From assembly GCA_030581615.1 (NCBI GenBank), contig JAKTTT010000007.1, positions 62,001-126,000 on the forward strand: a stretch of 64,000 bases of DNA, written 5' to 3'. Shown here piece by piece: positions 56,789 to 64,000 of this stretch. The notes under the pieces were generated by a model that had not been told where the DNA came from, made no database searches, and was given only the letters and a program-made list of their open reading frames with translations. The stretch comes from Alloascoidea africana. Taxonomy: Eukaryota; Ascomycota; Alloascoideomycetes; Alloascoideales; Alloascoideaceae. The position numbers and the translations under genes are program-made. Positions within the stretch are counted from its first letter, which is position 1. Every line of letters starts with the position of its first letter.

Positions 56789-58705
56789 TTACCGATTCAC
56801 TTCCTGTCGCTCCTCTTCATCTTCATCTTCATATTCCTCTCTATTTTCATCCATCAATGCGATTGCCTCTGGTTCAGGAATCTCCGAAAGCAAAAGCTCA
56901 TCGGGCTCAGCATCTGTCAAGCCGTACCAGCTGATTGCAGCAACGCCCAACAATCCAGCTATGGCCGAGAGTGCTATTGAAACATAACCTTTTAGAGTAA
57001 AGTGACCTGTAATAACGCCTGGTTGAACATTTTCTCCAGTCAAATCCAGAAAATCTTTGGAGTTCCCAGCCGCGTTACCAGCCAATGGGACGCCTGCTTC
57101 TTTACAAATCTTAAAGTAATCGTCGCTGAGATTCTGTTCTTCTTGGAGTTGTTCTGGAGCCTCAACCAAAGTCAGAACCAAGCCTTGTAGCACGTGCCAT
57201 TCAATATGACAATGGAAGAGCCAAACGCCCGGGTTATTTGCTCTAAAACGAAGCACAATGTGGCCCAAAGAGTTGACATAGACCGTGTCTCGGAGCACAG
57301 GGTACTGGGGGAAAGCTGTATGGTTATTGGGGTCAAACAGTATTGGGGGTTCACCGTCTTCTCTTCCCTCAGAACGGGCAATCATTTGGAAAATGTGGCC
57401 ATGCATGTGGAAAGGATGATTCCCGCCGTCCTTGTTATTCAAAACAAGGTCGATCACTTCGTTATGCTGGAGCACAAACGAGTTTGTGTTTGAGCCGTAG
57501 ATCAGAGCGTTGGAAGCAAGGTCGCCTGAGGTCATGACGGTGGTCAGAGTAGGGACTTTTGGTGGCATATAGGTGATGTTATTGAAAAAAGCATAGTTGA
57601 CACCATCGTCCAGATTGTCCATGGCCACCTCGACGGTGATTGTATAGTCAGGATCCGGAAGCAATTCCTCGCGGTTCAAAGGACGAAGGTAGAAATCATC
57701 CAGGAACTTGAAATTGGGCTCGTCCTCGTCATTGTCGATAGTGGGTGGATCTGGGAGGTCTGCAGCCTCGTCGTACACGACCCAGTTGGAGGAGGTGAAG
57801 ACCATGTCGTCGTAGATGATGTCCAACATGGTCGTGTCATAATGGGTCACCATGTTGAAATTCTTGGACGAGCTGGGCTTGGTTTTGAGAAGAAACGAGT
57901 AGCGCTGGCCCGTTGTGATATAGATCATGTTTGTTGTATTTTTTTCAACGGGCACGCCATCCACCTCGACAACGGTCAGCTCATGGTCGTCGATCCAAAA
58001 GTACTGGGAGACGAATCCTCCAACGTTGACGAGTCTGACGAGATAGGTTGTGTCGGGCTCGACTTTCCAGGAAACGTTTCTGGTCTCGTTAAACAGCAGA
58101 TTTTGCGGGATGGGTTCAGCGCCCGTTGGGTTGTAAATGCTGAGAAAACTTTTCTTCAATTCGGCCGACTCCTGGTGGTACCAGTCGGAGACGGTGAAGA
58201 CGACCTCTTGGTCGTAGTCGTCCTTGTAGGGCTCGTCCTCTTCGTCGTGGATGATGAAGACCCCTCTGAAGCCGTCGGGGTACTGGCCACCGGTGTGGGA
58301 ATGGTACCAGTAGGTGCCGGACTGCTGGACAACAAAGTCGTACGTGTAGGAGGATCCGGGCACGATGGGACACTGGCTGGCCCACTCGGGGCCGTCCATC
58401 TGCATCGATCCGTTCTGGAAGAGGCCGTGGAAATGGAGCGAGGTGTCCTGGTCGCCCAGGCCGTTGTGAAGATGGACGATGAGCCGGTCGCCCTTGTTGA
58501 CGGCGACCGTGGGCCACGGCCAAACTCCGTTGCATCCTACGACTCGCCGTTGCTTCACGCCGTCCGGGTTTGCCTGGACCCATGTCACGTTCCAGTCCAG
58601 TTCGTGGGTCTGGGGGGACGGGGATCGGGAGGAGAGAAGCGCAGATGCGACGCCAGGGTGCAACAGCACGGCCAGGACAAGAAACAAGAGACCCGTGTAT
58701 GCCAT
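56789..58705 (-). CDS. FET3: multicopper ferroxidase Fet3
   Basis: Plasma-membrane ferroxidase that oxidises Fe(II) and passes Fe(III) to Ftr1. 638 residues with N-terminal signal peptide (about 1-22), large extracellular part, one membrane segment (GYVSIALSAIAGLLGVAAIS, about 570-592) and an acidic cytosolic tail (EEYEDEDEEERQ). The four copper-ligand motifs are intact: SLHFHGLFQ, YWYHSHTGGQYPDG, GGNHPFHMHGH and LFHCHIEWHVLQGL; leucine occupies the axial type-1 position, as in Fet3. N-glycosylation sites are frequent (NVTW, NGSM, NETRNVS, NNTT-like). Single exon; GC-rich at its 5' half. TATA element at 58767-58774. It is divergent from UBC1 across about 960 bp. The long antisense frame (57842-58936) is a compositional shadow. 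Confidence 0.96.
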   Translation of the reverse strand: MAYTGLLFLVLAVLLHPGVASALLSSRSPSPQTHELDWNVTWVQANPDGVKQRRVVGCNGVWPWPTVAVNKGDRLIVHLHNGLGDQDTSLHFHGLFQNGSMQMDGPEWASQCPIVPGSSYTYDFVVQQSGTYWYHSHTGGQYPDGFRGVFIIHDEEDEPYKDDYDQEVVFTVSDWYHQESAELKKSFLSIYNPTGAEPIPQNLLFNETRNVSWKVEPDTTYLVRLVNVGGFVSQYFWIDDHELTVVEVDGVPVEKNTTNMIYITTGQRYSFLLKTKPSSSKNFNMVTHYDTTMLDIIYDDMVFTSSNWVVYDEAADLPDPPTIDNDEDEPNFKFLDDFYLRPLNREELLPDPDYTITVEVAMDNLDDGVNYAFFNNITYMPPKVPTLTTVMTSGDLASNALIYGSNTNSFVLQHNEVIDLVLNNKDGGNHPFHMHGHIFQMIARSEGREDGEPPILFDPNNHTAFPQYPVLRDTVYVNSLGHIVLRFRANNPGVWLFHCHIEWHVLQGLVLTLVEAPEQLQEEQNLSDDYFKICKEAGVPLAGNAAGNSKDFLDLTGENVQPGVITGHFTLKGYVSIALSAIAGLLGVAAISWYGLTDAEPDELLLSEIPEPEAIALMDENREEYEDEDEEERQEVNR

Positions 58706-58766
58706 GGAGGTGGTGGAGATGGAGATGGTGCTGGAGAGAAGCGGCTCGGAAAGGCGAACAGAGGTG

Positions 58767-58774
58767 TTTTATAT
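58767..58774 (-). promoter_or_regulatory. TATA box of FET3
   Basis: ATATAAAA on the minus strand, 62 nt before the FET3 start codon. A strong TATA element fits a highly inducible gene. Confidence 0.6.
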
Positions 58775-59115: not shown

Positions 59116-59626
59116 GCAAGTGGAAAGCTCGCTCTCGATCGTCTTTCAATTCTCGTCTTTTGTCTCTCGTCTCTCGCCTGTTCGGCTTCCCGTGGAGGTC
59201 TTCGCAATGGTCAGCAGGGCCCGATTTTTCAAAACAGGGCCCAGCATCAGGGACATGCTCTCTCTTTTTATCTCTTAGTGCGACCGCCAGGGGCTTTTGA
59301 TCCGGGATCCTATCCCATTGCACAAGTGCTCGCTCCCTGCCAGTGTCTCCAGACTCCAGAATCCCAGTATCTCCCGGTGTCCTGGCCCTGGCGGCTTGAC
59401 GGTGCTCGGCTTTAGCGATGGGCGGGCGGGCGAGAGGTTATGAGCGCTGGCTGGTGCTCAGTCTCTCTTCTCTCTGTTTGGACTCGTTCAGCTCACTTCA
59501 GTCACAAACAGGCCTCCCTCCTGCCGATTAGCACACCACTGCCATCGCCCGCGAAGAACTCGCCCCTGAGACCAGACCAGTAATCTGAGCAGTTAAGCGT
59601 GTGATTGGCAAATTTCGACCTTCATC

Positions 59627-59640
59627 TATATATATTTATA
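59627..59640 (+). promoter_or_regulatory. TATA-like tract upstream of UBC1
   Basis: TATATATATTTATA ends about 28 nt before the UBC1 ATG. This is close for a TATA box, so it may instead be AT-rich leader. Confidence 0.3.
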
Positions 59641-59668
59641 CTCCCATAAACAATCGGAACGGACACAA

Positions 59669-60692
59669 ATGTCAAGAACAAAAAGAATTCTCAAAGAGCT
59701 GGAGGATGTCACCAATGATCCGGCCTCCGGTGTGACTCTTTCCACCCTGGATGGCTCCGGTGACATTTCCCATCTAAAGGGAACCTTCCTGGGTCCTCCC
59801 AGTACTCCTTATGAAGGTGGCAAGTTTATCGTGGACATTATCATCCCTGTATGTTAATACTCAATTAGAAAGGAGTCACAAGCTGCTCACAAGCTTACAG
59901 GCTTACAGGCCCACAAGCCCTAACCTGTCTTGACTCAGTTTTGATGGGAAATGAAATTACTAACCGTTTAACCAATTAATAGAAAGACTGTACGTTTGCT
60001 TACTCTGGTCTTGGCCTTTTTTCCCCTTTTTTGCCTACCTGATAGCAAAACACTAACATGTTATGATATCAGATCCGTTTAAACCTCCAATTATGAAATT
60101 CGATACAAAGATCTACCATCCAAATATCTCATCGCAAACAGGTGCTATTTGCCTCGACATGTAAGTTTTCGAATTCAACTCTTCTTCCCTTTTGATCAAT
60201 CTACTAACTTTTTGAAAAAATAAAAATAAAAACATTTTACAATAATTCCAGTCTAAAAGATGCTTGGACTCCTATCTTAACCCTTAAATCATCTTTGATT
60301 TCTTTACAATCGCTATTGCAAACCCCGGAACCAAATGATCCACAAGATGCTGAGGTGGCCAAACATTACCTGAGTGATAAAAAAGGTTTTGATAATACTG
60401 CCGCGTTTTGGACAAAGGCCTATGCTGGTGCGAAAGATGATGATGGTAAGTAAAATTTCTTCTCTATCTGATCTTTTTTTTAATTTTGTAACCAACACTA
60501 ACTATAACACTAACACTAACAATCACAGATGGAACGTATGGCGCTGATCCAAAACTGGTTCGGAGTTTTGTGACGATGGGCTTTTCAAAACAAAAAGTGG
60601 TCGATGTACTACGCCGTCTCGGAATTAAAACTGTTTCTGGTCCTCAAGCCAGTGATTTGGAAAACAAAATTCTAGAAGAATTGTTGAAATGA
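59669..60692 (+). CDS. UBC1: ubiquitin-conjugating enzyme Ubc1, 5 exons including a 7-nt microexon
   Basis: E2 enzyme with a C-terminal UBA domain (E2-25K type), used by the APC and ER-associated degradation. Exons: 59669-59848, 59983-59989, 60073-60160, 60252-60445 and 60529-60692; 210 residues (S. cerevisiae 215). Exon 2 is just AAAGACT. It completes the conserved stretch [20 protein letters not shown]; without it three residues including the invariant Tyr are missing and the frame is broken. Introns are 134, 83, 91 and 83 nt, donors GTATGT, GTACGT, GTAAGT and GTAAGT, with CTAAC branch sites. The catalytic cysteine is in the [15 protein letters not shown] motif, followed by [19 protein letters not shown]. 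The UBA domain ([25 protein letters not shown]) ends the protein. It converges on BRE5. Confidence 0.96.
59983..59989 (+). other. UBC1: 7-nt microexon of UBC1
   Basis: Flanked by an acceptor (CTAAC, then TTAATAG) and a donor GTACGT. The seven bases encode Lys-Asp and the first base of Tyr, joined to AT of the next exon. Confidence 0.85.
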
Positions 60693-60743
60693 ATTTCCCT
60701 CCCTTATCCATCATTCATGGTTTAAATATATAAAAAATATATA

Positions 60744-60777
60744 TTTACATTTACATTTACATTTACATTTACATTTT
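60744..60777. repeat. TTTACA hexamer microsatellite
   Basis: Five TTTACA units about 52 nt downstream of the UBC1 stop. It resembles the TTTGTA repeat placed just after the LYS9 stop. Confidence 0.9.
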
Positions 60778-60956
60778 TACAAAAGACCTGAAACTGAACA
60801 CACTCTCTTGCTAGTCTTGATGATTTAGAAACAAAAAACTATTCTCAGATTTGTGTTCAACAACAATTTGCGAAAAAAGTCTCAAGTGAGCAGTTCAGAA
60901 TATCATTATTTGTTTTGTTTTCTAACTAATGCACAATTTTTACAAAAAAATCTCAT

Positions 60957-61683: not shown

Positions 61684-63336
61684 TTAGTTTCTTCTCCTTC
61701 CTCCTCTTCCTTCTTTCTCACCTCGGGTGCCTCGTGGACCTCCTTGTCCTCCACGATTGGAAAATTTCTTTCCCTTGAAAGCACCTCTTATTCTAGGTGT
61801 GATGGATACAACCTCATTACCCACAAGTATTGATCCCATCTTCAATGCTTTATGAACGCATGTCTCATCAACAAAATCAACATACACAGATTCGTTGGGC
61901 CCAAGTTGGAAATGTGTAACTTCCCCAATAACACTGTTCAATTGCTTGTAAAGCTGGTCCTGGTTGACTTTTTCTGTGACATCCTTGAGATAAACAGAGT
62001 GATACCTCACATTGGCCCCACCTGGTCCATCTGATCCATGACCATGTCCACCACGTCCATGGCCGTGGGCACCGCCACGATGTCCAGAAGCTCCATCAGC
62101 AGGCGTCGAAGGTTGCGCATTCTCTTGAGAAGACGATGATGAAGATACAACTGAGCCATTGTTAGAGGCGGCCTCGGAAGCAGGAGCAACCACAACGCTA
62201 GGAGCAGGACGAGTAGAAGGAGTGGCGGGAGCAACAGCAGTGGCAGTGGCAGTGGCAGCAGCAGCAGCAGTAGCAGTAGCAGTAGCAGTAGCCGTAGTCT
62301 TGGGTTCGGCTCCTATCGGGCTCTTTCTCTTTGCTGCTACAGCAGCCCACGAGGATGGTGGGGCAGGAACAGCAGGAACCAAGCCGCTGCTTGTCTTTGG
62401 CTTGCTTTCCTCAACAGCTACTTTTGCATTCCGGGCATCTACTTTTTCCTCCTTTGAGGCTGTTTTGGTGGTTGTGGGTGTGGATGCCGCTGGCTTGGAC
62501 TCGGTAACAGGGGCAGCGGGAGTCTCCAACTTGTCGTTTATGTCAGGGGTCAACTCGCTGGACGGGACAGTTGACTGTGAGAGGTCGGCACTGGCAACGC
62601 TTGGCTCTTCCAATTTGGAGCTGGTGGAATTGTCAGCCTCCTGTTCGGCCTGGCTCGCTTGAACAGGCTCCTGTGTTTCGCGGGCCGAGGTCTCAAGGCC
62701 CACTGCTTCGGATGGAGCAAATGTAGGAGCAGCGGTGGGGAGAGCTGGAGGAGCACTGACAGGGGCAGAAACAGCAACGGGGACAGTGGTCTCAACATCA
62801 ACACCGCCGGAAACGGATTCGGGTGCTTTGTCCTGGACAGCAGAATCCAACTCGGCTGCTGGTGTTGCTTCTTCAACACCGGTCTCGTCGTCATACTCAT
62901 CTCCAAAGCCCAAAGTTTCTTCTTTCAAAAAACGAAGAATATCATTCAAGATGAAATATTGACCAGGAGCAGAACTGACAAGAATAAAAGTTTGTACAAA
63001 CTTCCTGGCAGGCTTGTTATTGTTCGACATCTCACCAATGACTCCAACCACAATAGAATCATCCAAAGAGTACTGGAAATCTGCATTTATAATCATGACT
63101 TTGCAGTTCTTGAAGTCGTGCTTGGCAATACGCTCCTTAATTGCAGTTTGTCCATTAACCGAGCTCTCTTCAACATTCTCTTCTCCATGAAGCAAAAAAG
63201 ACTTGTTGTTGTAGAACAAGTGGAGCTTCTCCGGCTGCTCATTCAGGTGATTGTAGTAGGTCTCTATGAAAAACCAAACAATTTCATCAATAGATTTGGG
63301 CTTGTAGGTTTCTGGTTCAGGATTAGAGACAGACAT
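61684..63336 (-). CDS. BRE5: Bre5/G3BP-like protein (NTF2-like domain plus RRM)
   Basis: Cofactor of the deubiquitinase Ubp3 in yeast; related to the stress-granule protein G3BP. 550 residues. The NTF2-like domain lies at about residues 10-135: EIVWFFIETYYNHLNEQPEKLHLFYNN, FLLHGEE, IKERIAKHDFKNCKV, then VGVIGEMSNN and RKFVQTFILV with GQYFILNDILRFL. A long Ala/Pro/Ser/Thr/Glu-rich linker follows, with an (Ala-Thr)n run near 62230-62295. The C-terminal RRM spans about 435-515: VRYHSVYLKDVTEKVNQDQLY, VYVDFVDETCVHKAL. An RGG-like tail (NRGGQGGPRGTRGEKEGRGG) ends the chain. This domain order is diagnostic for the family. The start is the first ATG after an upstream stop. No intron. Confidence 0.92.
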   Translation of the reverse strand: MSVSNPEPETYKPKSIDEIVWFFIETYYNHLNEQPEKLHLFYNNKSFLLHGEENVEESSVNGQTAIKERIAKHDFKNCKVMIINADFQYSLDDSIVVGVIGEMSNNNKPARKFVQTFILVSSAPGQYFILNDILRFLKEETLGFGDEYDDETGVEEATPAAELDSAVQDKAPESVSGGVDVETTVPVAVSAPVSAPPALPTAAPTFAPSEAVGLETSARETQEPVQASQAEQEADNSTSSKLEEPSVASADLSQSTVPSSELTPDINDKLETPAAPVTESKPAASTPTTTKTASKEEKVDARNAKVAVEESKPKTSSGLVPAVPAPPSSWAAVAAKRKSPIGAEPKTTATATATATAAAAATATATAVAPATPSTRPAPSVVVAPASEAASNNGSVVSSSSSSQENAQPSTPADGASGHRGGAHGHGRGGHGHGSDGPGGANVRYHSVYLKDVTEKVNQDQLYKQLNSVIGEVTHFQLGPNESVYVDFVDETCVHKALKMGSILVGNEVVSITPRIRGAFKGKKFSNRGGQGGPRGTRGEKEGRGGRRRN

Positions 63337-64000
63337 ATCGGCAAAAGAAGAGTGGTGTGGGATTAAAAAATTAACAAAAAAATTGACCTTTCACTAAATA
63401 TTAAACAAGAAAGACAATGACAAAAGTAGTTAGTTGATTTTGTTCAGTGTGTCATGGAAAAGGAGACGTGGTGGCCTTCTTTTCCATCTCCCGCTTCGCA
63501 GTGGTTCTTGGCAGGGATTTCCCCCTAACTGGATTCCGAAAGGATGAAAGCAAAGACAAAATAAGACGCCGAATACATCAAGGTTGTCTTTTTGTAGATT
63601 GCATGAAAGACGCCCAAAACAAGATGAAATCATGTATTGGAAAAAGCGATCAGAAGAGGTGGTGGTTACGCCAGTGAAAACTGAGGGTGTGTGACAAACC
63701 CCATCCCGGCCAATACCCAACCACCGCTCTGAACCCAGCAAAACAACTTGAAATGGTAAACCGCAACTGAATACTCACAGATCGAAGCAAAAAAATATGC
63801 CAAACAAATACTTTACAGCGGTACGCGCGAGTAAACGAGACTTGGAGTTGAGTGCTGAGTGCTTTGAAAGGTCAAATTTTAGAAGTTCAGCGAAATGTTT
63901 CGAACCGGCCCCAGATTTACACATAGTTCTTAAGCAAGGGGCAAGAAAGTGCTTAGAGTCGAAAAAAAGAATTGGACCCTTAAGGCGGGAAAAGCATAGG
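63337..64000. other. BRE5 upstream region to window edge
   Basis: 664 bp with the BRE5 promoter at the left. A minus-strand frame of 103 codons (63741-63430) has no coding character and was not called. Nothing else recognised before the window ends. Confidence 0.5.

Follow-up and report, generated by a model that had tools for sequence, protein, structure and literature searches.

A seven-nucleotide coding exon, probably constitutive, in the UBC1 gene of Alloascoidea africana

Fungal microexons are described as little studied, with S. pombe named as the site of experimental tests (PMC11121469), and the smallest constitutive exon known before the single-nucleotide exon of Arabidopsis APC11 is given as 6 nt (PMC4674806). 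Microexons that behave as switches are, in the former source, usually a multiple of three in length, with both isoforms keeping the reading frame (PMC11121469). In S. cerevisiae DYN2, as PMC5793784 relates from Howe et al. 2003, a first intron with a suboptimal branch point leads to skipping of the second exon, and a review reads one study of Prp40 as indicating that Prp40 is required for exons too small for enhancers. The same account of DYN2 counts 10 two-intron genes in the whole S. cerevisiae genome (PMC5793784), and Saccharomycopsis fibuligera is put at 0.25 introns per gene (PMC5106798). A literature search over titles and the starts of abstracts, with subscription papers mostly outside its reach, returned no microexon report for a Saccharomycotina yeast or for an E2 gene. 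Here we describe a predicted seven-nucleotide exon, AAAGACT, in an E2 gene of A. africana and compare it with these systems.

The window, by which we mean the whole 64-kb stretch of DNA analysed, belongs to a genome of 23.2 Mb in 138 contigs and carries at 59669-60692 (+) a five-exon gene predicted to encode a protein of 210 residues. The gene is intact and single-copy, and orthologous to UBC1 of S. cerevisiae. The solved E2 enzyme closest to its protein was S. cerevisiae Ubc1 (1TTE), over residues 2-210 (1tte_A, E 2.4e-83), the next distinct protein in the ranking standing at E 4.6e-46, and 131 of the 207 residues aligned to yeast Ubc1 are identical. A genome search with the whole protein returned four pieces at 90-98% identity, all of them inside UBC1, and at most 51% identity elsewhere. 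The predicted product has a UBC fold (PF00179, UQ_con, 144.7 bits with the microexon included), an active-site cysteine, Cys89 in GAICLDI, by alignment to Ubc1, and a C-terminal fungal UBA domain (PF09288, 60.9 bits, residues 159-210); a UBC fold with its active-site cysteine, a UBA domain and Ubc1 as the closest relative place the deduced protein in the UBC1/UBE2K class. The features of the locus are as follows.

59669-59848 (+): UBC1 exon 1, 180 nt, Met1 to Pro60; aligns to yeast Ubc1
59849-59982 (+): intron 1, 134 nt, phase 0; GTATGT ... TACTAAC (59958-59964) ... TAG
59853-59858 (+): rival donor GTTAAT, 4 nt 3' of the GTATGT donor; splicing to 60073 gives IIIPVYPF
59936-59938 (+): possible alternative intron 1 acceptor CAG, score 9.1 versus 15.5; stop at codon 62
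59983-59989 (+): predicted microexon AAAGACT, 7 nt; Lys61, Asp62 and the first base of Tyr63
59990-60072 (+): intron 2, 83 nt, phase 1; GTACGT ... CACTAAC (60051-60057) ... CAG
60073-60160 (+): exon 3, 88 nt; completes Tyr63, then PFKPP; active-site Cys89 (TGC in ATTTGCCTCGACAT)
60161-60251 (+): intron 3, 91 nt, phase 2; from spliced alignment
60252-60445 (+): exon 4, 194 nt; remainder of the UBC fold
60446-60528 (+): intron 4, 83 nt, phase 1; from spliced alignment
60529-60692 (+): exon 5, 164 nt including the stop codon; fungal UBA domain PF09288

The neighbouring genes both lie on the opposite strand: at 56789-58768 (-) a multicopper oxidase in a single open frame with three Cu-oxidase domains, and at 61684-63390 (-) an NTF2-domain protein whose middle is a long low-complexity region and whose end is rich in Gly and Arg. 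A perfect tandem repeat, (ATTTAC)5.7, occupies 60743-60776, about 50 nt 3' of the UBC1 stop codon.

We aligned the region 59500-60800 to yeast Ubc1 (1TTE) with a custom spliced aligner carrying generic fungal splice preferences (GTA.GT donors favoured, a bonus for CTAAC). Given no prior hint of a small exon, the alignment recovered AAAGACT at 59983-59989, and the identical four introns were returned at intron penalties of 6, 10 and 14. Exon 1 ends in IIIP (CCT/GTATGT, 59848) and exon 3 opens with /AT CCG TTT after ATATCAG (60073). A preliminary description of this DNA had placed AAAGACT at 59983-59989 between TAG and GTACGT; these coordinates are right, the CTAAC that it noted upstream lies at 59960-59964 within a full TACTAAC motif, and the interval 59849-60072 that it singled out comprises the microexon and its two flanking introns. 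Its proposal that the seven bases restore phase and supply the residues before PFKPP is also well supported, by spliced alignment, splice signals and protein homology.

The microexon would contribute two residues and one base immediately before the conserved YPFKPP. The resulting K-D-Y corresponds to M-E-Y of yeast Ubc1 in the PDB alignment and to N-D-Y, P-D-Y and E-T-Y in three other distinct PDB proteins. Up to [YF]P none of the five PDB alignments, two of them to a single yeast protein, shows a gap, and the alignment is equally gapless at 16 of the 17 further E2-like loci taken from the genome; the seventeenth, L011, was excluded from the spacing count for a doubtful 39-nt intron at that place. 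Overall, the AAAGACT microexon is very likely to be real.

To score the splice signals we used as reference 32 introns found in 12 E2 loci of this genome and defined by homology with guide proteins, so that the matrices derive from one gene family; the UBC1 introns, the 39-nt L011 intron (judged an artefact) and the seven introns of L050-L052 were left out. Of 26 loci, 18 entered the alignment; the other eight (L015, L016, L018, L020, L022, L024, L025 and L026) were fragments of those genes or neighbours. An intron set based on patterns and open frames alone was dropped as noisy: across 200 kb it held 21 candidates on one strand and 22 on the other, widely varied in length and donor, its control being the 4 candidates on one strand of one shuffle, and the homology-guided introns were used instead. 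With the donor matrix the microexon donor scored 7.1 and that of intron 1 7.55, the leave-one-out scores of the 32 E2 introns running from 1.8 to 13.4; on this matrix the microexon donor is ordinary rather than outstanding, with about 1.5% of the GT dinucleotides in 200 kb scoring as well. Scored alongside branch-plus-acceptor, the microexon donor gave 6.7, inside the 2.8-10.1 range of the 32 introns. The branch-plus-acceptor signal before the microexon scored 15.5, which to one decimal matches the highest of the 32 introns (3.4-15.5, median 13.0); the corresponding signal of intron 2 scored 13.9. From the end of the CTAAC motif to the end of the intron there are 18 nt in intron 1 and 15 nt in intron 2, and 17 of the 32 E2 introns have an exact CTAAC no more than 60 nt from their end.

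Three AG...GT exons of 1 to 61 nt between exon 1 and exon 3 restore the frame without a stop: AAAGACT (splice score 22.2), ACTGTAC (17.1) and a 25-mer (11.4). AAAGACT has the best score, and it alone places an acidic residue directly before Tyr. When the interior was dinucleotide-shuffled 20,000 times, no 7-nt exon that restored the frame without a stop reached the score of AAAGACT. Genome-wide, on both strands, the pattern CTAACN{6,30}YAGN7GTACGT matched once, at UBC1, and its reversed-pattern control nine times; the same signature with a GTAAGT or GTATGT donor had six more matches (reversed control 25), making seven places for GTA[ACT]GT donors versus 34 in the control over both strands of the 23.2 Mb. 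With a slightly narrower gap, signatures for a 4-nt exon numbered 2 (control 21) and those for a 10-nt exon 9 (control 30), one genomic place being counted in both lists. The signatures at 4, 7 and 10 nt are thus scarcer than the reversed control and, because the counts show no excess, do not suggest a genome-wide class of microexons. One of the six other 7-nt matches was inspected and lies upstream of an ATG, with no coding exons seen around it.

The preliminary description had held that only AAAGACT could restore phase. This is too strong, because the GTTAAT donor at 59853, joined to 60073, and the two other internal exons also leave the gene in frame. If GTTAAT were used there would be no microexon: exon 1 would run to 59852, a single 220-nt intron would follow and the protein, reading IIIPVYPFKPP, would be one residue shorter. 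This arrangement keeps the frame and the Tyr, and the aligner fell back on it once the microexon donor was masked, at a cost of about 10 points (655.2 to 645.4). The presence of GTTAAT is unsurprising in itself, since every GTNNGT donor has a second GT four bases on. We nevertheless consider its use very unlikely. Its donor score of -1.58 falls under all 32 leave-one-out donors, the lowest of which is 1.8, and 47% of the GT dinucleotides across 200 kb equal or exceed it. The Pfam UQ_con score drops by 9.8 bits (134.9 versus 144.7 for KDY), the spacing kept in 16 other judgeable E2-like loci is violated, and GTATGT, TACTAAC-TAG and GTACGT are all left unexplained. ACTGTAC at 59987-59993, in which both borders move by four bases to give P-T-V-H-P, likewise restores the frame without a stop; its lower splice score (17.1 versus 22.2), a Pfam score 7.8 bits lower (136.9) and the loss of the Tyr make it scarcely credible as the exon used. 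A twin intron, in which one intron is nested in another, was rejected by reasoning, as it adds no coding bases and so leaves the frame unrestored.

The prediction that skipping the microexon would frameshift the E2 core was borne out by translation, which reaches a stop at codon 68, before Cys89. Retention of intron 1 gives a stop at codon 63, retention of intron 2 one at codon 80, and use of the acceptor at 59938 for intron 1 one at codon 62, so that all four computed mis-splicing stops precede Cys89. Correct inclusion is thus needed, but this does not argue for a switch, because any out-of-frame exon here would behave alike. The preliminary description had raised the possibility of an on/off switch. 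In a regulated form of this reading, inclusion would depend on conditions and skipping would silence UBC1 via the premature stop. The stop at codon 68, the further stop at codon 62 from the weaker acceptor at 59938, and the report of a condition-dependent microexon in Trichoderma virens Xlr2 (PMC11121469) all fit such a switch. However, every splice site and branch motif flanking the microexon is canonical, with a perfect TACTAAC in intron 1; each intron has its own signals and no weak site or other sign of regulation was seen in the surrounding sequence. The multiple-of-three length of switch-like microexons is also absent here, the exon being 7 nt and its skipping leading to the stop at codon 68, and plain skipping would yield a dead product only, with no second useful protein. 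The proposed switch finds no support here, and we regard it as highly improbable. Nor do we give more than slight weight to the idea that UBC1 output is set by splicing competition at the microexon, the speed of splicing tuning both the amount of the E2 and its choice of partner. Of the competing products, that of skipping would be a dead mRNA, that of the CAG at 59938 a stop-bearing mRNA and that of GTTAAT an in-frame enzyme with one residue fewer beside the E3-docking loop. We take the YPFKPP stretch to be part of that loop.

We infer instead, with a probability of roughly 0.88, that AAAGACT is a genuine internal coding exon, used in the RNA and included constitutively, whose flanking introns are recognised singly by intron definition. 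Each of these introns has a complete signal set and would be recognised separately. Seven bases separate the intron 1 acceptor from the intron 2 donor, and the two sites are unlikely to be occupied simultaneously; removal of the introns would be stepwise, because seven bases are unlikely to hold the acceptor and donor machinery together. Removal of intron 1 first would be favoured, as it is transcribed earlier and has the perfect TACTAAC. After the first splice the microexon would be joined to a normal exon, and the remaining intron would gain an ordinary flank. From the DYN2 precedent, the perfect TACTAAC in intron 1 (CACTAAC in intron 2) predicts inclusion.

The rarity that the preliminary description ascribed to such exons holds in the aligned part of this genome, where the UBC1 microexon is the sole one of 27 internal coding exons (counted in the aligned E2 genes and three Rab-like genes) shorter than 26 nt, the next smallest being 26 nt; exons of similar size are known, however, in other fungi and in plants. 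The genome is intron-rich for a yeast by comparison with the S. cerevisiae and S. fibuligera figures given above, 12 of the 17 other E2-like loci aligned carrying one to four introns. In a UBC8-like gene (L004) the first coding exon appears to be another very small one, of 5 nt (ATGAG), followed by an intron of 254 nt. A search for a shared ancestral intron found none at either microexon-flanking position in the aligned E2 paralogues; two UBC9-like genes have an intron exactly one codon upstream of the UBC1 intron 2 position, in phase 1. Similar copies that share their intron positions were seen in pairs for UBC4-like (L009/L010, on C12), UBC9-like (L006/L007, C10 and C58), CDC34-like (L005/L017, C4 and C11) and Rab-like genes (L050/L051, C25 and C11), the two UBC4 copies lying on the same contig about 44 kb apart. 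From such paired genes a past genome duplication or a hybrid origin is possible, UBC1 itself being single. A scan of viral contigs gave 22 pattern matches, none of them a relative.

As far as the genomic sequence allows a judgement, the UBC1 microexon appears to be a neat but ordinary case of an already known type of tiny exon. If confirmed in RNA, it would be a clean natural case of a constitutive yeast exon of 7 nt, and a test case for how a spliceosome presumed to rely on intron definition copes with two sites seven bases apart. Gene predictors that do not allow such exons would frameshift or truncate the UBC1 E2, and annotation of intron-rich yeasts should permit exons this small.

Four described systems offer the nearest comparisons. 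The P450 genes of Phanerochaete chrysosporium share very small fungal coding exons, the shortest 6 bp according to gene models, in a basidiomycete and in a large gene family, whereas here there is one exon in one conserved gene (PMC1184071). Xlr2 of T. virens resembles UBC1 as a fungal gene with a microexon whose inclusion determines the protein made, although inclusion was reported there from experiment to depend on glucose and the UBC1 microexon is predicted from sequence (PMC11121469). DYN2 exon 2 of S. cerevisiae is likewise an internal exon of a yeast gene with inclusion tied to the branch point of the first intron, a dependence described as shown by mutation in DYN2 and predicted for UBC1 (PMC5793784). 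Although Arabidopsis APC11 is a plant gene, with an exon of one base reported as confirmed by cDNA and reporter assays, it combines what we predict for UBC1: a tiny constitutive exon that a ubiquitin-system gene needs to keep its frame (PMC4674806).
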